A stretch of DNA of 64,000 nucleotides from Neovahlkampfia damariscottae (lineage: Eukaryota; Heterolobosea; Selenaionea; Neovahlkampfiida; Neovahlkampfiidae), in contig JABLTG010000045.1 of the NCBI GenBank assembly GCA_016618085.1, positions 49,105 to 113,104 on the forward strand, in the 5' to 3' direction. The notes beneath the pieces are model-generated. The model saw only the letters and a program-made list of their open reading frames with translations, had not been told where the DNA came from and did no database searches. Below are positions 31,555-59,798 of the stretch, one piece after another. Every line of letters starts with the position of its first letter. The stretch's first letter is position 1. A program made the translations under genes and the position numbers.

Positions 31555-32212
31555 ATGAGCAAAACAAAAAAAGAAGAAGTAAAACTCGTCGTTTTTGGTA
31601 GTGGAGGTGTTGGAAAAAGTGCTCTAATTGTACAATTTATACAAAATGTTTTCGTTGAGCAATATGATCCGTTCGTCATTTTTTAATTTTTAATTTTAAA
31701 AAAAAAAAAATAGGACTTTGGAAGATTCTTATAGAAAAGACATCACTCTAAATGGAAGACCATGTGTTTTGGATATATTAGATACAGGTAAAAAAAAACT
31801 AGTTTTTTATATTTTTGTAGCTGGTCAAGAAGAGTTTCATAGTCTTAGAGATAATTATGTTAGACAAGGAGAAGGATTTGTAATAGTATACAGTGTTGAT
31901 AATAAGAATTCCTTTGACGAAGTTAGCAAATTCATAGCACAAATTTTATCAGCGAAAGAACTTGAAGAATCCGAAATTGAATTAGCTGCTGAATTACCGA
32001 TTATCATCGTTGGAAATAAATGCGATTTAGTTGACGAGAGAAAAATTTCAACACAAGAAGGACAAGAACTAGCAAAAAAATTTGGAGGAGTAAAATTTAT
32101 CGAAGCTTCAGCAAAAACAAAAGACAACGTTGAAGAAACTTTTATGGATGCTGCTAGACAAGTTGATGAAAAAGTTAAATCAAAAAAAAAGAAAGATTGT
32201 CTTGTAATGTAA
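31555..32212 (+). CDS. Ras/Rap-type small GTPase
   Basis: Exons 31555-31670, 31714-31787 and 31821-32212 give 193 residues. The G motifs are complete: [21 protein letters not shown] (effector loop), LDTAGQEEF with the catalytic Gln, NKCDL and EASAK. The polybasic tail ends in the CAAX box CLVM, so the protein should be prenylated and membrane-bound. The effector loop YDPT-(I/L)-EDSY is Ras/Rap-like; upstream regulators cannot be inferred. Confidence 0.96.
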
Positions 32213-41507: not shown

Positions 41508-43684
41508 ATGGAGTTTTAATGAAGAAACAAAAAATGTTGTTGTGCAAAAAAAATTTGTCCCATCAAGAGATTTCATTGGATCAAACGTTTCAATTGGATT
41601 TGTTGGTAGTATGAATGAGTTTCTGAAGTATCAACAATCCAAACAAGTTGTTACAACACGCATGGGTCGTAGGAACGAAGACCATGGAGATAGAAGAATG
41701 ACAAGAAAATTCAATCGAAGAATCCAAAAATTTGATAAAAGTATCTCTGACGTAAAAAGAGAATATGAATTATTACATCCTTTACAAACAGGAAATACAA
41801 GAAATGATATATTCACAGAAAGAAATAAACACCTAAAAGAAAAAAGAATTCACAAAGATGATCTTGTAAAAGATTCAAGTGACAGTGAAAGTGAACAAGA
41901 AGAAGATGAAGATATCAAAGATGTTGATGAAGTATTAAAATCAACAGCAGAATTATTACCAAGAAGAATAAATTTTGTGAAAAGTAAAAAAGACAAAGAA
42001 AAGGAAAGTCATCAAAGCGATGAACCTTTCATTGAACCAATGCATCAATTATATGATAGGGAAAAGTTAGTAAAATTATTAAATTGGAAACAAGTCAATA
42101 GAATTGGATGTGGTTTGAATAATTTAGGAAACACATGTTTTTTAAATTCAGCATTACAATGTTTGATGTATGTTCCTTTGTTCAATAATTATTTGCAAAC
42201 AAGAACACCAATTCATTGTAAAAATTGAAAAAAAGTTTTTTAACGTTTGATAATAGCAAAAAACTTTTCACCTTTGGATTCTTTATTTGATTTGATTAAA
42301 AAATCAAAATCATCAACACATCCAATATCACCTTCTGAAATTGTTAGAAATCTTAAAAGTAAAAAATATTTGAAAATTGACTTTATTTTTTAGCTATTGG
42401 GAAACATTTTCGACTTGGAAGACAAGAAGATTCACAAGAATTTATTATTAACTTGATTGTAAATTGAAAAAAAAAAAATTGTTGTTAACATTTTACTTTC
42501 AGGATAAAATGGAGAATTCAATTTTATCAAAATTTAAGAATAAATTGGACAACAAAGTAAAAGAAACCAATGCAGTCAGACAAATTTTTGGTGGTTATTT
42601 TTTAAGTCAAGTTGAAACAGCAAGTGGTTATAAATCAAATACCTATGACTCTTTTGTTGATTTAAGTTTAAATATTCAAAATGTAAACTCAATCAAAAAA
42701 GCAATCAACAATTTTTCAAAACCGGATATTTTAAATAAAGAAAATAAGTACAAGAATCCAATAACTGATCAATATGAAAATGCAAAAAAATCAATTACCA
42801 TTTATAGAGCCCCATTAGTTTTAATTGTTAGCTTGAAAAGATTTTCGTATGATGGAAGAAAAATCAACAAATTCATTCAATTTGATGAAATATTGGAAAT
42901 AAAAGATCACTCAAAAGTTCAAAAATATTATTTGACTGGAATAGTTGTTCATTTAGGATCTACAAGAAATTCTGGACATTATATTTCATTTGTTAAGGGT
43001 TCAAATGGTGCTTGGTATGAAATGGATGATGAATGTGTGAATCAAATTTCTTTGAAGAAACTCTTATCTCAACATGCTTACATTTTATTTTATTCAAAAG
43101 TTGTAACTGATGATGAATTGAAACAACAAGAAACTAAAGAAGCTAAGATTAAAAAACAAGAGAAAGAAGATTCAAATAAGAAAATAGAAAATGTTTTATT
43201 TTATAAAAGTGAATCAAAAACGGATCAATCAGCATCACCTCTGAAAAAGGAATCAATAAATGTGACTCCTGCAAAAAAAGAAAAAAAAAAAAAGAGAAAA
43301 AGGAGTCATGAACAAGAAGAGGAAGAAAAATCATCAACACCTGAAAAAGTTCCAATGAATGGTGGAACAAATGGATCAGAAGAAAAATCAAAAAAGAAAA
43401 GAAAAAAAAGTGCTGAAGAATCAAAAATCAAAAGAAGTGAAGAAGATTTTGATGTCAATGATTTGGTGAATGATCGTTCAGAAACATCATGGGACAACGC
43501 AACAGTTATTCCTTCTCCGACCAATCTTTTCAGAAAGAAATCAAAACCAAAAAAAGATACTTGGGATATTGTTTATGATTTAGGAAAAAGAAAAAAAAAG
43601 AAAGAAAAAGTGGACATTGAAGAATGGAAAAAAGGAGGAAAAGAATTTCAAAAAGCATACGAAACAAAAAATAAATCAAAATAA
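41508..43684 (+). CDS. USP36/42-like ubiquitin-specific protease
   Basis: Exons 41508-41512, 41568-42217, 42257-42358, 42394-42458 and 42503-43684 give 667 residues. The 5-nt first exon is tentative; a start at 41611 keeps the same frame. The Cys box GLNNLGNTCFLNSALQCL and the His box RNSGHYISFVKG with WYEMDDE are intact. The Cys pairs of the usual zinc ribbon are not seen after FGGYFLSQVE. The tail has KKEKKKKRKRSHE-type basic clusters and ends WDIVYDLGKRKKKKEK, as in nucleolar USP36. Likely role: deubiquitination in the nucleolus. Confidence 0.85.
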
Positions 43685-43863
43685 AATTTTTAATACCAAA
43701 GAATACTAAATTTATTCAATCTTGTCAGCTTCTGGTTTACATCAGTCAATCTTTTGTTAAGTCTTTGTTTCTCTAATTGTCCAATGGTTTTAGTATTATA
43801 TTCAATTTATTTTATCCAATCAACTCCTTTTTCCGCTTCTTTTGTTTTGTCAGTCGTTCGTTC

Positions 43864-46800
43864 ATGGTGAAGGAGAAAACAAAAAAAACAAAAAATTCCT
43901 ATGAACCATATGAGAAGACGGAAAATAAAAATGGTAGTATCATCAATAGATTTACATCATTTCTTGCTTCTTTCCTTCCTGGATATGAAGAAAAAGATGA
44001 AAAAATTATAAACGAAAATTCAGAAGAAGAAAAAGATATCATAGAACAAGAAGATATTGATAGTCCAATTGTAAAAGACTCATTTACATTTGAAACTCCT
44101 CAAAAAGAAAATTCAAAAAACGAAAAAAAAAATTTGCAGCAAGTCACTCCTATTGATGTTGTAAGGACATTTTTAAGAAGAAAGCCAAATCAAAGAGAAG
44201 AAGATAATCAAACGAATTATGGCTCCGCTTTCAAACCACATACAAAAAAAGTTGTACAACAAAATCAAAAAAGAAGACAATTTTTATCTACACCTTCAAA
44301 TTATAACAGAACAAGAGAAACAAATCTACTTACACCAAAATCAACTTTTAGAAATTATTCAAGTTTGGAAACTTCTTCCTTTTCAGATTTAAAAAGAAAA
44401 AGAGAAGTTGACACAACTCCTTCATTCATTGAAACATCTTCAAAAAAGAAAAAAAAGACATTTTCAAAAGTTCAACAAGTTTCAAGTTCAACAAAACCTT
44501 CAGAAAATCAATTTCATTTTCAAACACCAACTTCTGGTAAAAAGAAATCTTTGGAATATAGTAACACAGCAAAAGAGATTTTAGATAGAATTGATAAATT
44601 ATCAACACCACTTTCAGATATTCATAAATTACCTTCAACACCACTTTCAGTTCGTTTAAGTTCATATGTTTCACGTAGAAAAAAAATTCAAAAAAAAGAA
44701 ACTGAAATTTCATCACCACCACCTCCAAATCAACCAATTCAATTAGATATTTCTGCAAACTTTAAAAAATCAGATTTAGCTACAGATATTAATATTTTCA
44801 GTACAAAAGAAAAAAAACCATATCAAAGAAAGAAAATTGAGAAAGAGGTTAGTGAACCTGTTATGGAAGAAATATTTCAACAAAAAGAAAAGGAATTAGG
44901 TTCTATTCCAAAATTAGATTCAAATACAACTTTTGTTTTTGGTGAAGAAGAAAAAACAGAAACACCAAAATCACCAACAAAACCAATTTCTTCTAATTTT
45001 GGACTTGATTTTAAAGAAACAGAAAAGAAAGAAAAGGATACAGCTCAAATATTGTTTGGAGATGAAGAAGAAGAAGAATCTGTATCAAAATCAAGAAAAC
45101 TTTCTTTTGATGAAGAAAAAGAAACAAAAAAACAAAAATTTGATTCATTTGCCACAAAAGAACCAGAAACATTAGCAGGTTCATTCAGTTTTGGTGAATC
45201 TGATAAAAAAGAAGAGAAACAAGTTCAAAAAAAAATATCTTTTGGAAGTTTTGGAACTAATGAAGAAGAAGAAAAAGAAGATAAAACTGAAGAAAAACCA
45301 AAATCTTTTGGAGGATTTTCATTTGGAGAAGAAAAAGAAAATGAAGAAAAACCATCATCATTTGGAAGTTTTTCATTTGGAACAATTGGCACAGAAGAAA
45401 AAGAAACAAAAGACACAAATGAAAAAGAAGAAGAAGAACCAAAAGTTTCATTTTCTGAAAAAACAGAGGAAAATGAAACTGAAGAAACAAAACCATCATT
45501 TAGTGGATTTTCATTTGATAAAACAACAGAAGATAAAGATAAAAAAATAGATTCTTTCAGTGTTGGTTCATTCTCTGTTAAATCAAAAACAGATGATAAT
45601 AAAGAAGAAGAAACCAAATCATTTACTGGATTTTCATTTGGAACAGAGAATAAAGATGAAGAGAAGAAGGAAGAAGAAGAAACAAAAGAAGAAACAAAAA
45701 CATCATTTGGAGGTTTCTCCTTTTCTACAGTTGATACCACTGAAAAGAAACAAGAAGAAAAAGAAGAGGAAAAAAAAGAAACACAATCATCTTTTGGTGT
45801 ATTTTCATTTGGTTCAGAAGAAAAAAAAGAAGAAAAAGAAGAAAAAAAAGAAACAACTGAAGAAGAGAGTAAACCTTCTTTTAGTGGATTTTCATTTGGA
45901 GGATCAACAACAGAATCAGAGAAAAAAGAAGAAGTTAAATCTTTCTCATTTGGTTCTGATGATAAAACAGAAACAACTGAAGTATTCAAATTTGGTGATA
46001 AAAAAGAAGAAGAAGAAAAACCATCATTTGGTGGATTCTCTTCAGAAGAGAAAAAAGAAGAAAAGAAAGATGAAAGCAAACCATCATTTGGATTTTCATT
46101 TGGAGCAGAAGAAAAAAAAGAAGAAGAAAAGAAAGAAACATTTTCTGGTTTTTCTTTTGGAGGAGCATCAACAACAGAATCAGAGAAAAAAGAGTCAACA
46201 CCATCTTTTGGAAGTATATCAACATCTTTTGATTTTGGTGGTAGTTCAGCTGCAAAAGAAGATGACGGAGTTTTTAAATTTGGATCTTCAACAACTGAAA
46301 ATAAAACTGATACAGCTGCTGCTGTGACATTTGGAGGTACTCCTTCTTTTGGAAGCACAACAGAGCCTACATCAACAACTAGTTTTGGTTTTCAATCAGA
46401 ACAACCTTCTTCTTCTACCACAGGATTTGGTTTTCAATCAGAGCAACCTAGTTCAGCAACTAGTTTTGGATTTCAAAATGAAACTTCATCAGCAACTGGT
46501 TTTGGACAAACAACAACACCAAGCAGTTTTGGAGGATTTGGTTCATCTGAACAAACAACACCAAGTTTTGGAGGTTTTTCTCAATCATCAGAACAACAAC
46601 AACCAAACTCAGTATCAAATTTTGGATTTCAATCTCAACCACAGTCAAATGATACATTCAAAGCTGGTTTTGGTGCATCTTTTGGTGGAGGAAATGATTT
46701 TGGAGGACAAAATTCATTTGCATTCAATCAACAACCTCAACATCAACAACAACCATCATTTCAAGCTGGATTTTCACCAGCAGGTTTTGGTGGTGCTCCA

Positions 46801-46899
46801 ACACCTTCAGGAGATAATCCATTTAATGCACAACCACAACAACAAAAAGCACAACCATCACATAGAAAACCAATGGTTAGAGCAAAAAGAAGAAAATAA
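43864..46899 (+). CDS. FG nucleoporin, NUP153/Nup1-like basket protein
   Basis: This single-exon frame gives 1011 residues from the ATG at 43864. Near residue 20, SIINRFTSFLASFLPGYEE looks like the amphipathic membrane-binding helix of Nup1/NUP153. Residues about 380-840 hold repeated FSFG/FGGFSF units spaced by Glu/Lys-rich linkers. Residues 840-980 hold FG repeats in Gln/Ser-rich, uncharged spacers. The C-terminus RKPMVRAKRRK matches the short basic end of Nup1/Nup136-type proteins. It probably lines the nuclear basket and binds karyopherins. Confidence 0.88.
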   Translation: MVKEKTKKTKNSYEPYEKTENKNGSIINRFTSFLASFLPGYEEKDEKIINENSEEEKDIIEQEDIDSPIVKDSFTFETPQKENSKNEKKNLQQVTPIDVVRTFLRRKPNQREEDNQTNYGSAFKPHTKKVVQQNQKRRQFLSTPSNYNRTRETNLLTPKSTFRNYSSLETSSFSDLKRKREVDTTPSFIETSSKKKKKTFSKVQQVSSSTKPSENQFHFQTPTSGKKKSLEYSNTAKEILDRIDKLSTPLSDIHKLPSTPLSVRLSSYVSRRKKIQKKETEISSPPPPNQPIQLDISANFKKSDLATDINIFSTKEKKPYQRKKIEKEVSEPVMEEIFQQKEKELGSIPKLDSNTTFVFGEEEKTETPKSPTKPISSNFGLDFKETEKKEKDTAQILFGDEEEEESVSKSRKLSFDEEKETKKQKFDSFATKEPETLAGSFSFGESDKKEEKQVQKKISFGSFGTNEEEEKEDKTEEKPKSFGGFSFGEEKENEEKPSSFGSFSFGTIGTEEKETKDTNEKEEEEPKVSFSEKTEENETEETKPSFSGFSFDKTTEDKDKKIDSFSVGSFSVKSKTDDNKEEETKSFTGFSFGTENKDEEKKEEEETKEETKTSFGGFSFSTVDTTEKKQEEKEEEKKETQSSFGVFSFGSEEKKEEKEEKKETTEEESKPSFSGFSFGGSTTESEKKEEVKSFSFGSDDKTETTEVFKFGDKKEEEEKPSFGGFSSEEKKEEKKDESKPSFGFSFGAEEKKEEEKKETFSGFSFGGASTTESEKKESTPSFGSISTSFDFGGSSAAKEDDGVFKFGSSTTENKTDTAAAVTFGGTPSFGSTTEPTSTTSFGFQSEQPSSSTTGFGFQSEQPSSATSFGFQNETSSATGFGQTTTPSSFGGFGSSEQTTPSFGGFSQSSEQQQPNSVSNFGFQSQPQSNDTFKAGFGASFGGGNDFGGQNSFAFNQQPQHQQQPSFQAGFSPAGFGGAPTPSGDNPFNAQPQQQKAQPSHRKPMVRAKRRK

Positions 46900-46921
46900 A
46901 ATTTTTAAATAAAACAAAGGT

Positions 46922-48063
46922 TTAACTTTTTTTGTTTTTAATTTGTGTATAAATGAATGTTGAAATACCAAATAATAAAGCCAAAATTAAACATAATCCA
47001 CCAATTACTAAATAACATACAGCCAAAAATATATTTTTTCCTCCAATCCATGATGTAGTCGTGATGATAAATCTTTTTTTACCATTAAAAGATGAAACAG
47101 GATAATCTTTGAAAAAATTTAAAAAAAAATGAAAATAATTACTTTGAACGATATCCATAACATAAGTACCAGCATTTAAAGGTTCACTTACAATTCTATA
47201 TAATTTTCTAAAATTTGGTAAAGCAGCTGTTCTCATCCAAACCATTAAATCAGTATCATTTGTTTGTGGAATAATATGTCCACTTTCATTATAGTATGAA
47301 TTTGGATAAGACATATAACCTGCAGCAGCTGGTTTAAATTTATATTGTCTATCAGAAAGCCAAGCAATTTCGTCTTTTGAGCATTTACTTGGTGATAAAG
47401 TTGGATTTGGTCCATTACAAATAACGGTTTCTGTAACTCCTGATTTCTTTTTTAAAACAAATGTATCTTTTCAAAATCAATTTTTTTTTTTTTTTACCGT
47501 TAAACATTGACCAAGCAATTAAACCACAAGGATTATAAAGTAAACTATCATTTGAAGCGACACCTGGATATCCTAAAATAGGTGTACAATCAGTTTGTAC
47601 ATTACTATATCCTCTACTAAGACCTTGAAGTTGATAATCATTTCTTGAGTTTGCATAACGACGATGATTTTGATAAAAATTATCCAAGTGATAATAAATA
47701 TAAATAGGTGGTTCCATTCTTGTCTCAACATTAAAACTGAATGAATATTTGCATTGTTTGCCTAAAGTCTTGATTGGATTTCCAAAAGTATCATTTTGGA
47801 AAGTCATAGCGCATGTATCTGTATAATCATGTGATATTTCTTGAACCTTTTTTTTTAAAAATTTTTTTTAGTTTTTTTTTTTTTAAATTTGTTACTCCTT
47901 GACTTGCCAACAAGATGAAGACTCCAAGTGGTGTAAATACAATAAAAATAATCAAAAATAAAGCGATAACCCAAGGAGGTGATAAAACAGGTTGCCATGC
48001 AGGCATTCTTTGTTGTGTAAACATGTTATCGAATGGTTTCTTTTTTTTAACCTCTGTGCTCAT
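46922..48063 (-). CDS. CDC50/TMEM30 flippase subunit
   Basis: Exons 47896-48063, 47498-47846, 47143-47466 and 46922-47106 give 341 residues. Two membrane spans flank a large lumenal domain: WVIALFLIIFIVFTPLGVFI near residue 31 and VCYLVIGGLCLILALLFGI near the end. LIAWSMFNDTFVLKK is restored by removing a 31-nt intron; NYPVSSFNGKK and TTTSWIGGKNIFL are family hallmarks. It is the beta subunit of P4-ATPase lipid flippases. N-glycosylation sequons (FNDT, YNES) occur in the lumenal part. Confidence 0.94.
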
Positions 48064-52606: not shown

Positions 52607-54112
52607 ATGAGTTCAGTTGATAAAAAAAATGAAGGAAATGAATTCTTTAAAGCAAAAAATTACAAAAAAGCAATTGAAGCTTATACAAAAGGATTGATTT
52701 CAGAAGATAAAAATGATATTGACCATATTTTACTGACAAACCGAAGTTCTTGTTACTTTGCAGAAAAACATTTTTTACTTGCAATATTTGATGCAAAAGA
52801 AGCTCTGAAAATTAATGAAAAATGGAAAAAGGGATATATTAGATTAGGAGAAGCACAAATTCAATTTGGTGCAAAAAAATCAGCAAAAGAAACGTTTCAA
52901 AAAGGATTAGAATTATTTCCAAAAGATGAAGCTTTGACTAAATATTATGAATCATTGAAATATTCAAATGTTGAAAATTCAATACTTAAATTAAACGATT
53001 ATGAAGTGAAAGAATTTTTTTTCATGATTTTTGCTCTTCAAAAACACATATTGGAAAATACAAATGTTCTTCCAAATGTGTCTTTTAAAGATTTACCACA
53101 ATTGGATAATACAGTTAAAGTTATGTTAAATGAGTACATATGGAGTCACAGAAACGATGTATTGGAACCAATAATTGAGAATGAACAACCAAAAGCAATT
53201 TGGAATGAAATTCTTCCTTTGTGGAATCAAAAAATTGTTCAAGGTGAATTTTGGGTGTTATCAGTATCTTATTATGGTGCTTTATTGTATGATGAAAAAA
53301 CAAAAAAAGTTTATTTAATACAATCATTGCATGACCCAATAAGAAAAGTTATTCCACAAATTCCAATGCATTTAACAGCAACTTTACTTCCTTGGAAGTA
53401 CAATGGAAAAAATATAATTTTATATGATGGACTGTTCAAGTTTACAGGACAACAACCAAAAATGAAATTTGATCCTCAAGTTGTCATTTCAGAAGCAATT
53501 CGAAAGAATGAAATTATCTATCAATTTGATTTTAAAAAATGTTGGAATTGTGGAAATGTTGAAAAGGATATTAAATTTAAGCTCTGTGGATCATGTAAAA
53601 TTGCAAGATATTGCTCTGAAAATTGTCAAAAAAGTCATTGGAAATCCGATCATAAATTTACTTGCAAAACATCTTCAAGTGAACCAAAACCACAAAAAAA
53701 ACCGTCTTATAAAGCATCCGATTTTTATTTTGGGTATTTTTCTAATCAATTTCAAATTGCTTTGAAGACAGATTTTGATAAATTCAAAAAATTAGATGAA
53801 GATTTGTTATCAAAAAAAATCATGGAATCTCTTGGATTTGAAAGAGTAAGTCTCACATATTCCTATTGGAATGGTACACCAGAAGAAGGAAAAACAAAAT
53901 TACTGAAAGCTGGAATGGAAATGCATCCCGAATTATCATATCAAAATGGTAAAGAAGAGGATAATCGAACTACATTTGAGAAATTAGAGGATATTGGAAA
54001 TATCCCAGAAGATCAAGTTCAATATATTGTTCAAGATATGTTGAGTAGAGGAGACGTTTCAGAAACTGAAGTTCAACAATTCTTAAAATTTTATCAATCT
54101 GTCAAAAAATAA
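52607..54112 (+). CDS. TPR and MYND zinc-finger protein
   Basis: This single-exon frame gives 501 residues. Three N-terminal TPRs (GNEFFKAKNYKKAIEAYTKG onward, residues 8-115) are of the type that binds HSP90/HSP70 tails. A central domain (about 120-300) has no recognised family. A MYND finger starts CWNCGNVEKD and continues CGSCKIARYCSENCQKSHW to DHKFTC, with all Cys/His ligands present (residues about 308-350). There is no SET domain, so it is probably a protein-interaction adaptor. Confidence 0.85.
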   Translation: MSSVDKKNEGNEFFKAKNYKKAIEAYTKGLISEDKNDIDHILLTNRSSCYFAEKHFLLAIFDAKEALKINEKWKKGYIRLGEAQIQFGAKKSAKETFQKGLELFPKDEALTKYYESLKYSNVENSILKLNDYEVKEFFFMIFALQKHILENTNVLPNVSFKDLPQLDNTVKVMLNEYIWSHRNDVLEPIIENEQPKAIWNEILPLWNQKIVQGEFWVLSVSYYGALLYDEKTKKVYLIQSLHDPIRKVIPQIPMHLTATLLPWKYNGKNIILYDGLFKFTGQQPKMKFDPQVVISEAIRKNEIIYQFDFKKCWNCGNVEKDIKFKLCGSCKIARYCSENCQKSHWKSDHKFTCKTSSSEPKPQKKPSYKASDFYFGYFSNQFQIALKTDFDKFKKLDEDLLSKKIMESLGFERVSLTYSYWNGTPEEGKTKLLKAGMEMHPELSYQNGKEEDNRTTFEKLEDIGNIPEDQVQYIVQDMLSRGDVSETEVQQFLKFYQSVKK

Positions 54113-54139: not shown

Positions 54140-54148
54140 ATGTTGTGA
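54140..54148 (+). promoter_or_regulatory. Minimal uORF (ATG TTG TGA) overlapping the main start
   Basis: A two-codon upstream frame ends in TGA whose last base is the A of the main ATG (TGATG). CCAAT lies at about 54127. If the leader includes this ATG, the main frame would depend on reinitiation or leaky scanning. Confidence 0.35.
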
Positions 54149-55100
54149 TGAATTATGAAGATTTACCAAATGATTGTATTCTGGAGATTTTGAGTTTTTT
54201 AAATGAAAATGAGTTATGTCTTATGAATATGACATCAAAAAAATTAAAATTTTCATGTTTCTCAAATAAAAATATTTTTTGGAAAAACATATTTGAAAAG
54301 AAGTACAATTTTGAAATTTTTTCAATAAAAATAAATCAAGAAAATGAATTTTGTTATAAAAAGGCTGTAAAAAATGTATATAATGAAGTTGAAAAATATT
54401 TTTCTTCTCGAGATTTACAACAAAAAAACTTGAAAGAATTTCAATATGTTAATAGTAACTTATTGATTTGTTTGTACAATTTAATTGAAGAACCGATATA
54501 TTCTTATTTAAGAATAACAGTGATAGGAGACAGGTATTTAAAAATAATTAAAAATTATCTTTAAAAGTGGTGTTGGAAAATCCACAATTTTTTCGGAGTC
54601 AGAAAAAACGTTTTATTTGAAAAAATCAATGATTAATATTTCATTTGCAGATACATCTGGATCATGTAAGTTTATTTTTTCAATTTAATTTTCAGATGAT
54701 TATGACAGAATTCGGACTTTGTCCTATACCAATACAAATTGTTTTGTTCTGTGCTTTAGTTTAGTCAATAGACAGTCATTTGAAAATATAACAACAAGAT
54801 GGGTCCCTGAGATCGATCACTACAATCAAATTGCTCCTATTTTTATCATTGGAACTAAATCTGATTTATCAAGAGATCAAGAATATTTGAGAAAAAAAGG
54901 AAATGGAATTCCCATTCACCCAAATGAAGTGAGAAAAAAATATTTCTAAATATTAGATTATACAATGTGTAAAGGAAGTGGGTGCAATAACATATCTTGA
55001 AACTTCTTCAGTGGAGAATTTCAACATTATTGAATGTTACAAAATTATTATTGCAATTTGCACTTACAAAAAGAATAAGAAAAAATGTAAAATTCAGTAA
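54148..55100 (+). CDS. F-box domain fused to a Rho-type GTPase with CAAX tail
   Basis: Exons 54148-54533, 54568-54665, 54696-54928 and 54957-55100 give 286 residues. Exon 1 holds both the F-box (LPNDCILEILSFLNENEL and FWKNIFEKKY) and the first GTPase strand LRITVIGD, so the fusion does not depend on splicing. GDSGVGKST, DTSGSYDYDRIRTLSY, CFVLCFSLVNRQSFENI, GTKSDL and YLETSS follow, with a Rho-like insert. The Gln-61 position is Ser, and the stretch between P-loop and DTSG is about 17 residues short. The end is KKNKKKCKIQ, a polybasic CAAX box. I infer a membrane-anchored SCF adaptor with a weak or non-cycling switch. Confidence 0.82.
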
Positions 55101-56134: not shown

Positions 56135-56466
56135 ATGGAATATGAAAAGTTTTTCTTGATGTTTCATCATCAAGAATTAAAAGGCTCACAATCACAAAAT
56201 ATGAAAGTGAAATACTTCCAGTTGAACAACCTATGTCAGTACATTGTACAGGTCTTTTGGTTTTTTTGAAAAATAACCACTTACATGCACTTGCTTCAGC
56301 TGTGTGTGAAAAAATTAAATCATTCAAATATAATTCTCTCTTCTTTGGACATCGAAAGAAAAACAAAAATTTGAACTCCGATGCCGGGAATCGAACCCGG
56401 GTCGCCTGGGTGAAAGCCAGATATCCTGCCACTAGACTACATCGGATATTGTTATGTGTTTGTTAA
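56135..56466 (+). CDS. Doubtful short gene running into tRNA-Glu
   Basis: A model with exon 56135-56148, a 26-nt intron (56149-56174) and an open frame from 56175 encodes protein-like sequence such as EILPVEQPMSVHCTGLLVFL and ASAVCEKIKSFKYNSLFFGH. The frame then reads through the antisense strand of the tRNA gene, giving the well-known tRNA artefact AGNRTRV, and stops at 56466. The part before the tRNA may be the remnant of a gene truncated at the tRNA. Homology is not recognised. Confidence 0.3.
56365..56369 (-). terminator. Pol III T-tract for tRNA-Glu
   Basis: Five A on the plus strand read as T5 seven nt beyond the tRNA 3' end, with a second T5 at 56359-56363. This is a normal RNA polymerase III terminator. 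Confidence 0.6.
56376..56446 (-). tRNA. tRNA-Glu (UUC)
   Basis: On the minus strand the acceptor arm TCCGATG pairs with CATCGGA. The A box (TAGTCTAGTGG) and B box (GGTTCGAATCC) are both present. The anticodon loop CTTTCAC gives anticodon TTC. There is no intron. The 3' CCA is not encoded, as usual in eukaryotes. Confidence 0.96.
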
Positions 56467-57743: not shown

Positions 57744-59798
57744 ATGTTTGTTGAAGAAAAAATAATGGTTGAAGAAGAAAAAATAACAGAAATAGAAACC
57801 ATGAGTTTTGATGATTTACCAGATGAAATTATACTCCAAATTATTTCTTATGAAACTATTGATACACTTTCAATTCTTTTAGGAATTTCAAAAAGATTTC
57901 TAATTTTAACCAGTTCTTCTTTGCTACCAATTTTAGATGATTATAGTTCAAATGATATTTCAAATAATGATATTTTAACTATTTTATCAAATTCTGAATA
58001 TTTTGTTAATTTGTCTTTACTCAAATATCATTTGTCAAAAGAAATATTAACAATCATTGAAAAAAAAAATTCAAAATATTGTACTTTGAAGAAATTATTT
58101 ATAAATTGTTCAAAATTAACAGATAAATCAATCACAAATCATTTTGGATCTAAAACACTTCCAAATTTGAAAGAATTAGGTTTAAAATTTGATTCTTGGG
58201 GTGATCATCAAAAATTTGATTTAAAGAATGTTTTACAGCTCACAAAATTAGAAAATCTATACATAGAGTATCATAGTAGCGGAGATGAAGCTAATACAAC
58301 TGAAAAAATGTCAAAGTTTTTTGCTGAAAATACCAAAAACTTGAAAGGGATTACTTTGATACACGGAAACCCATTCTTGTACAAATATTTGAATTTCAAC
58401 AATTTAACAAAATGTACCTTTGATGTTTCTATAAAGTTGGATTTGACAATGTTCAAGAATTCAGAACACCTAAAATATCTGAATCTATCTTGTATTGACG
58501 TGAAAGAAACTTCACTATGTTTTGAATCAGTAGAGACATTAATTATCTCTTTAAGAAGTAATGTGTCGAAAGAATTCAAGAATTCATTCTTTATTGATTC
58601 ATTTCCAAAGTTAAAAACGTTATCTCTTGATTCATTGATATGTTCCGGTTTTTGGAAAGTTTTGGATAAATTGAAATTGGAAAATTTATCATTTAAAAGA
58701 TGTGATATTAAATTTTCAGATTTAAAAGATGATTTAAACACAATCAATCAGTCATTACACTTAAAGACAGTCAAAATTCATGATTTTTCAGATGAAAATG
58801 GATTATTTATAAATGACAAAGATTTAATTAATTTGGTTCATTTGTCACCATTCTTAGAAGAATTAATTATTGATAAATGTCACTTTACAGAATACGCTAC
58901 TTCATTCAATTTTTTTGAAAAGAGAAAATTGAAATATTTAACAATAGCAAACTCAAAGAATGTTTTTATTGAAAATGTTCTTGATTTGATTTTTCATAAT
59001 AGTTTAACATTAAAATCTGTCAATTTATCAAAAACTGAATTTTTAAATGTCGATAGTTATAATGATTATTCCAATAGTTCAGTGGAAGAATTAACATATT
59101 TGAACTTGGAGAATTCAGAATCAGCAGATAAAATATTAAATTTCTTGATTGATTCAGGTTTAAAAACATTGAAATACTTGAATATTAATGATTGTCAAGT
59201 TGAATGTCTTGAAAAATTATTGGGAATGAACTCTATCATTTCTCAATTTTTTGCAGAGAGTTCTCAAATCAAAAATGATTATTTGAAGTTCTTTTCAACG
59301 GTTGAATTGACTTCTTTGAACTTGTCTTACACTAATCTTACTGAAGAAGGATTAGAATTATTGTCAGATACGCAATTATCTCATCTTGAAGATTTACGAT
59401 TCTTTGGAAATAAAATCAAAAATAAATCAAAACTTTACAAGATTTTAAGTAAATGTACAAGTTTAAGATGTTTATCGATTAATGTTCAAGATTTTGGTTT
59501 GGAGGATGATATATTTGAATCATTATCCAAGTGCTATTTCATTGAAGATATTTTGATTTGTGGAAAGGGTAATTGTTCAAAAAAAGAAATACAAAAATTT
59601 GTGTTAGAACATCAATTCTTAAAGTATATGATTCTGGATGACTCACCTTTTCTACCTGATGAAATTGATGTGATTTTGCAAAAATGTCGAAAAAAAGGTA
59701 GAAGAGCTCCAAAATTGATTTTGAGTTCTTACAATGCAAAATTAAAGAAAAATATGAAGTATGAATTTGATCAACGTAAAACATGCATTATTTCATAA
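57744..59798 (+). CDS. F-box and leucine-rich repeat protein
   Basis: This single-exon frame gives 684 residues. An F-box-like start (FDDLPDEIILQIISYETI) is followed by many irregular LRRs, such as LKKLFINCSKLTDKSITNHF, TLKSVNLSKTEFLNV, LTYLNLENSES and LTSLNLSYTNLTEEGLELLS. This architecture belongs to SCF ubiquitin-ligase adaptors in which the LRR binds substrate. The substrate cannot be inferred. ATTGG lies about 18 bp upstream. Such genes are often expanded families in protists. Confidence 0.8.
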   Translation: MFVEEKIMVEEEKITEIETMSFDDLPDEIILQIISYETIDTLSILLGISKRFLILTSSSLLPILDDYSSNDISNNDILTILSNSEYFVNLSLLKYHLSKEILTIIEKKNSKYCTLKKLFINCSKLTDKSITNHFGSKTLPNLKELGLKFDSWGDHQKFDLKNVLQLTKLENLYIEYHSSGDEANTTEKMSKFFAENTKNLKGITLIHGNPFLYKYLNFNNLTKCTFDVSIKLDLTMFKNSEHLKYLNLSCIDVKETSLCFESVETLIISLRSNVSKEFKNSFFIDSFPKLKTLSLDSLICSGFWKVLDKLKLENLSFKRCDIKFSDLKDDLNTINQSLHLKTVKIHDFSDENGLFINDKDLINLVHLSPFLEELIIDKCHFTEYATSFNFFEKRKLKYLTIANSKNVFIENVLDLIFHNSLTLKSVNLSKTEFLNVDSYNDYSNSSVEELTYLNLENSESADKILNFLIDSGLKTLKYLNINDCQVECLEKLLGMNSIISQFFAESSQIKNDYLKFFSTVELTSLNLSYTNLTEEGLELLSDTQLSHLEDLRFFGNKIKNKSKLYKILSKCTSLRCLSINVQDFGLEDDIFESLSKCYFIEDILICGKGNCSKKEIQKFVLEHQFLKYMILDDSPFLPDEIDVILQKCRKKGRRAPKLILSSYNAKLKKNMKYEFDQRKTCIIS

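Follow-up and report, generated by a model that had tools for sequence, protein, structure and literature searches.

A spliced gene of Neovahlkampfia damariscottae joins an F-box to a reduced Rho-like domain and a predicted prenylation signal

The window, by which we mean the whole 64,000-nucleotide stretch of DNA analyzed here, carries on its forward strand at 54148-55100 a single spliced gene for a protein of 286 amino acids, with four exons separated by introns of 34, 30 and 28 nt (Table 1). Once these three GT-AG introns are removed the frame runs uninterrupted from the ATG at 54148 to the TAA at 55098-55100 and encodes, in this order, an F-box, a linker, a Rho-like domain and the tail KKNKKKCKIQ. 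A spliced aligner returned the identical model with the window protein serving as its own query. A stop-free run of 286 codons at 27% GC has a probability of about 1e-11 in random sequence, a value that is indicative only because the exons were chosen, and homology is the stronger proof of the gene. GC content at first codon positions is 0.282 vs 0.393 and 0.381 in the two neighboring genes, a low value that is mild evidence either of relaxed constraint or of a composition rich in Lys, Asn and Ile. The open spliced frame, together with six paralogous loci of equal domain order, bears out the first-pass annotation of this DNA in placing an F-box, a Rho domain and a CAAX box in one polypeptide, and the tail that it read is encoded in exon 4, where CKIQ follows KKNKKK. 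Its further description of one continuous exon passing from the F-box into the GTPase holds as far as the P-loop, at Ser129 (Rac1 position 12), but most of the GTPase is encoded by exons 2-4. Structure prediction was applied to exon 1 by itself, and the resulting model was of low quality (pLDDT 41.5).

Table 1. Parts of the F-box–Rho gene in the window, followed by paralogous loci elsewhere in the genome
Feature	Position	Strand	CAAX box	Content or basis
Exon 1	54148..54533	+		ATG, F-box, linker, beta-1, and P-loop as far as the split codon of Ser129
F-box (residues 4-50)	54157..54297	+		Pfam PF12937/PF00646 at cut-off; paralog matches
Linker (residues 51-120)	54298..54507	+		Homologous to linkers of C9 and C274 (shuffle tests)
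Intron 1, 34 nt, inside P-loop	54534..54567	+		GT-AG, required for frame
Exon 2	54568..54665	+		Remaining P-loop GDSGVGKS, Thr35 equivalent, beta-2, beta-3, DTSGS
Junction lacking 17 residues (Rac1 18-34)	54583..54584	+		DNA and alignment to Rac1/paralogs
DTSGS, Ser at Rac1 positions 59 and 61	54650..54664	+		Alignment
Intron 2, 30 nt	54666..54695	+		Splicing model
Exon 3	54696..54928	+		Switch II to GTKSD (G4 from 54851), Rho insert
Intron 3, 28 nt	54929..54956	+		Splicing model
Exon 4	54957..55100	+	CKIQ	G5 (ETSS), alpha-5, KKNKKK from 55068, CKIQ 55086-55097, stop 55098-55100
C274, Kelch-F-box-Rho-CAAX	243500-248000		CILS	Position 61 Pro; near-complete GTPase motifs
C9, Kelch-F-box-Rho-CAAX	43000-47000		CVIQ	Position 61 Pro; near-complete GTPase motifs
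C114, F-box-Rho-CAAX			CNLQ	Position 61 Ala
C267, F-box-Rho-CAAX	84785-85757		CSIQ	Frame break at A run; DxxG unrecognizable
C298, F-box-Rho-CAAX			CKFM	One 529-codon frame; position 61 Ala
C66, F-box-Rho-CAAX			CIIN	Position 61 Asp

The gene is closely flanked on both sides. The upstream neighbor, a TPR-MYND gene, has its stop at 54112, 35 nt before the ATG, and the downstream neighbor, a short-chain dehydrogenase gene on the opposite strand, stops 7 nt away. Fusion to the TPR-MYND gene was considered and rejected, as the two donors checked by eye gave no in-frame join with the nearest acceptor. Elsewhere in the window a 684-codon frame at 57744-59798 (+) has F-box and F-box-type LRR hits, both below cut-off, and is perhaps another F-box gene nearby. 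A further Ras-family GTPase match lies at 31673-32164 (+) (C247:80777-81268), and a tRNA-Glu(ttc) at 56376-56446 (-).

At its N terminus the window protein reaches the curated Pfam cut-offs for an F-box marginally, with 24.3 bits against a cut-off of 24.3 for PF12937 (F-box-like) and 20.7 against 20.5 for PF00646 (F-box). In a PF12937 profile search of the genome contigs the same F-box scores 27.5 bits. Comparison with the F-boxes of the six paralogs gives shuffle z values of 11.6-20 for four of them and 5.7 for C298; the value for C66, 1.4, is not significant. The linker that follows matches those of C9 (z 7.6) and C274 (z 6.1), with none of 300 shuffles scoring as high, and more weakly that of C267 (z 4.2, 1/300 as high), while shuffle tests found no significant match to the linkers of C114 (z 1.1), C298 (z 2.8, 4/300) or C66 (z 0.7). 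The linkers of C9, C274, C114 and C267 are themselves mutually similar (z 5.9 to 32.7).

The C-terminal half matches the Ras family (PF00071, E 5.6e-23), and the nearest PDB sequences to it are those of Rac1 (E 4e-27), a Rho/Rac affinity accompanied by a Rho insert that is present, as the first-pass annotation had listed, but slightly shortened. The other conserved motifs on that list, GDSGVGKS and GTKSD, also stand, and ETSS is present as well. Residue numbers refer to Rac1, and an equal alignment was seen against Rac1 PDB chains. The loss behind the P-loop, put at about 17 residues by the first-pass annotation, is exactly 17 by alignment and by the adjoining codons: the DNA has no codons for Rac1 residues 18-34, which make up helix alpha-1 and the first half of switch I. 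GKS runs directly into TIF, aligned to Thr35-Val36-Phe37 of Rac1 with Thr35 kept, and from Thr35 to Gly60 there are 26 residues in the window protein and in Rac1 alike. A hidden exon for the missing segment is ruled out, because the GKS and TIF codons are adjacent in the DNA and leave no intron that could conceal it. Residues 17 and 35 of the Rho fold both coordinate the magnesium ion, and a direct joining of these two positions is geometrically conceivable. Identity to C9 is distributed unevenly, with 7/14 residues over beta-1 and the P-loop, 3/22 over Rac1 35-56, and 36/66 from 57 to G4.

Serine occupies the position of the catalytic glutamine, in agreement with the first-pass annotation, and is found at positions 12 and 59 as well; serines at 12, 59 and 61 are the Rnd substitutions. 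The domain lacks the complete G1-G5 set with switch I and Gln61, and it ends in a CAAX box after a polybasic stretch, for which prenylation is predicted. The proposal that the GTPase may be nucleotide-locked survives in part. The three serines and the family-wide loss of Gln61 fit dead hydrolysis, but this member also has neither alpha-1 nor the first half of switch I, and to judge from its sequence the domain seems more likely to be a pseudoGTPase that has lost normal nucleotide binding than a locked GTPase.

The 20.4-Mb genome (307 contigs) was searched with the window protein, PF12937, PF00071 and PF00651 as queries, and spliced models were then built. At least six further loci encode an F-box, then a Rho domain, then a CAAX box; as best candidates only are scored in the genome search, all numbers of loci given here are minima. 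One exact 18S pattern gave no match, and the adenosylhomocysteinase sequence is nearest to PDB 6uk3 and 5v96, which come from Acanthamoeba and Naegleria fowleri. The F-box of C298 reaches 49.1 bits in the Pfam scan. Kelch repeats precede the F-box in C274 (PF24681, E 2.4e-35) and C9 (E 1.6e-18); inspection by eye of the sequence ahead of C114 and C267 showed none. The segment missing from the window gene is held by C9, C114 and C274, and C267 is likewise without a normal switch I; the frame break in C267 may be a sequence error or the mark of a pseudogene. C274 and C9 are good members for functional study. Other combinations were encountered in the same searches. In C98 and C252 an F-box above the PF12937 cut-off lies before Ras-like, non-Rho GTPase domains, and in C69 an F-box was seen by eye before a Ras-like domain, with no Pfam F-box in the scanned piece. 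C88:5777-6342 encodes a Rho-like domain without most of switch I and II, a possible further pseudoGTPase with no Pfam F-box in the scanned piece, and C215:746-2137 holds two adjacent, similar Rho-like genes in which DDPGSEEF replaces DTAGQEDY.

Gln61 is absent from all seven F-box–Rho loci and present in 22 of the 24 modeled Rho-type genes that have no F-box, a difference for which Fisher's test, taking genes as independent though they are related, gives 1.4e-5 (4.7e-5 without C267). The two exceptions among the 24 are C167 with Arg and C148 with Thr, and if four non-fused rows of low score are counted among those without Gln61, the comparison becomes 22/28 with p 2.6e-4. The association rests on about three lineages, and supported branches offer 2 independent pairs, too few for significance in a sign test (p 0.5). 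Rho-type genes without an F-box were taken at a spliced score of at least 300, with fused rows kept at any score (C114, 266). A Met lies within or just before the start of the domain in 23 of these 24 rows; C36 is without one and may hold an N-terminal part. Spliced modeling covered 43 places out of 58 genome-search rows. The rows left out were the three that fall in the window gene, four on F-box exons of genes already included, that of C267 (modeled separately), three merged with a neighbor, and C278, C296, C130 and C51. The row at C284:15042 re-found its neighbor, and its own gene lies outside the modeled set.

A parallel difference is seen at the C terminus. Each of the seven F-box–Rho loci has a CAAX box, and none of these boxes ends in Leu (final residues Q, S, Q, Q, Q, M, N). 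Among the other Rho-type genes a CAAX box was read in 18, of which 15 end in Leu (p 2.5e-4 for the difference). Tails were read for at most 150 nt, and C272 and C135 are counted as without CAAX because reading stopped there. A last residue other than Leu directs a protein to farnesyl rather than geranylgeranyl addition, and on this rule the sequences of the F-box–Rho tails point to the farnesyl type; a final Asn, as in C66, is unusual for either. C135 (18471 onward) is a separate Rho-BTB-BTB gene in this genome, with a Rho domain followed by two BTB hits. This RhoBTB-like gene retains Gln61, so fusion to a cullin adaptor does not as such force loss of the glutamine.

In a tree of 32 GTPase domains five of the seven loci (the window gene, C274, C9, C114 and C267) form a clade (95/96), C298 and C66 are placed outside it, and the branch of the window gene is long (2.17). 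The clade was not recovered in a wider tree of 46 rows, which includes long Ras/Rab-like branches and is poorly resolved. Common descent of the five, as judged from these sequences, is fairly well supported. A single clade of all seven is not on the best tree, which needs three changes; the AU test does not reject such a clade (p 0.246), and one to three F-box–Rho fusions in all are possible. Kelch repeats occur in two members of the five-gene clade, so the ancestor of the five was probably a Kelch-F-box-Rho protein, and Kelch would then have been lost in three members.

The initial view that this pairing, with a lipid anchor, was unfamiliar proved too strong. TbFRP and F-box-bearing ARF proteins are in print, and RhoBTB3, which has a CAAX box, and Rab40 are precedents for joining a GTPase to a cullin ligase. 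Unlike the window gene, Rab40 combines a Rab domain with a SOCS box (Cul5) rather than an F-box, and Rnd1-3, unlike the window protein, keep switch I, are GTP-loaded and are not known to carry an F-box. Rab40 resembles the proposed window protein as a small GTPase within a cullin or ubiquitin ligase (PMC13236570, PMC6088270), and Rnd1-3 share with it the absence of Gly at position 12, forming a constitutively active class (passages of PMC13236570). RhoBTB1-3 and Dictyostelium RacA likewise join an atypical Rho domain to a cullin adaptor, and RhoBTB3 is described as having a CAAX box and missing most of its GTPase domain (PMC4931677, PMC8305917). The adaptor of RhoBTB is a C-terminal BTB domain (Cul3), whereas that of the window gene is an N-terminal F-box (Cul1 expected); the Pfam scan of the window protein contains no BTB, and so not the two BTB domains after Rho that define RhoBTB. 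TbFRP, from Euglenozoa, has an F-box ahead of a Ras-superfamily GTPase like the window gene but differs, in the passages of PMC3593210 that describe it, in having a Rab18/Ypt6-like GTPase, an N-terminal FYVE domain for membrane binding, and no CAAX box. The Pfam scan of the window protein contains no FYVE domain, and its GTPase is nearest Rac1. F-box-bearing ARF-family proteins also combine a small GTPase with an F-box, and a passage of PMC8358228 presents them as recurrent recruitment into ubiquitin circuits; their GTPase is ARF rather than Rho, and a CAAX box is not mentioned in that passage. In the Naegleria fowleri genome paper (PMC8296547), the references for the small-GTPase supplement include F-box, BTB and RhoBTB reviews, and the supplement may list such fusions. 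Among the matches listed from open-licence papers, titles and the starts of abstracts do not name an F-box–Rho fusion with a CAAX box. These comparisons suggest that F-box-Rho-CAAX proteins are a membrane-bound variant of a known coupling between GTPases and ubiquitin ligases.

The genome also contains one SKP1 match (C288), several cullin loci, and three loci with prenyltransferase-beta domains, partner genes with which roles of the window protein as SCF adaptor and prenylated anchor would be consistent. We consider it reasonably probable that the window gene is real and encodes an SCF adaptor that is anchored at a membrane and carries a pseudoGTPase of Rho type, in effect a RhoBTB-like protein working through Cul1. 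The F-box would bind SKP1, which would link it to a cullin of the Cul1 type. The C-terminal domain presumably descended from a Rac-like GTPase, and the window branch, in which no Kelch is seen, has lost Gln61, Gly12, alpha-1 and half of switch I, changes that would abolish switching and probably the normal holding of nucleotide. The polybasic CKIQ tail, probably farnesylated, would hold the protein at a membrane and place an SCF ligase beside partners of the Rho-like surface, with ubiquitination of those partners or of the protein itself. In the Kelch members the propeller may bind substrate, with the hydrolysis-dead Rho domain providing location or partner choice. In the window protein nothing but the linker and an eroded Rho domain is left for binding, so the conserved half of that domain, from switch II onward, is the likely docking surface.

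The same parts could instead serve self-turnover, the F-box rapidly destroying the Rho-like protein itself and recruiting no other substrates. In passages of the papers concerned, those who described TbFRP raise the possibility that its F-box is coupled to rapid proteolysis (PMC3593210), auto-ubiquitination is thought to remove RhoBTB proteins (PMC4931677), and the constitutively active Rnd GTPases are short-lived (PMC13236570). The Kelch repeats of C274 and C9 resemble substrate receptors, however, and a domain unable to bind GTP scarcely needs rapid shut-off, which makes this alternative unlikely, if the strongest of those considered. Less probable still is an incipient pseudogene with no present function and a frame open by chance. 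The disappearance of Kelch, alpha-1 and half of switch I, the long branch, the low first-position GC and the frame of C267, broken at an A run, are all in keeping with decay, yet the 286 codons lack a stop or frameshift despite 34-37% identity to the nearest full-length paralogs, the splice sites are intact, and the residues past 57 and the CAAX tail are conserved. That 51 nt present in C9, C114 and C274 are missing from the assembly only is very improbable, as the gap is exactly in frame, the stretch right after it has also drifted (3/22 identical to C9), and C267 too lacks a normal switch I.

Returning to the membrane-anchored adaptor, we tentatively propose a broader account, plausible though short of probable, in which these loci form a family of SCF receptors, anchored at a membrane and based on Rho domains that no longer hydrolyze GTP. 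At most three captures of an F-box would each have been accompanied by loss of Gln61 and a farnesyl-type CAAX box, and one branch would have joined the Ser17 position to Thr35, shedding alpha-1 and half of switch I to leave a minimal pseudoGTPase docking module. Among the seven loci the GTPase ranges from almost intact to a stripped pseudoGTPase; the catalytic Gln is missing throughout, and the lipid signal is shifted. This suggests a rule in which fusion to a ubiquitin-ligase adaptor is accompanied by loss of GTP hydrolysis; the one RhoBTB-like gene of this genome, with Gln61 in place, is an exception. The window gene, as a naturally occurring deletion, also offers a way to ask what portion of the Rho fold is needed for docking. 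Across the whole 20.4-Mb genome PF12937 gives 150 rows when E values as high as 1 are admitted, many of them short of the family cut-off, and BTB gives 147, several per gene, together a large set of candidate cullin adaptors.
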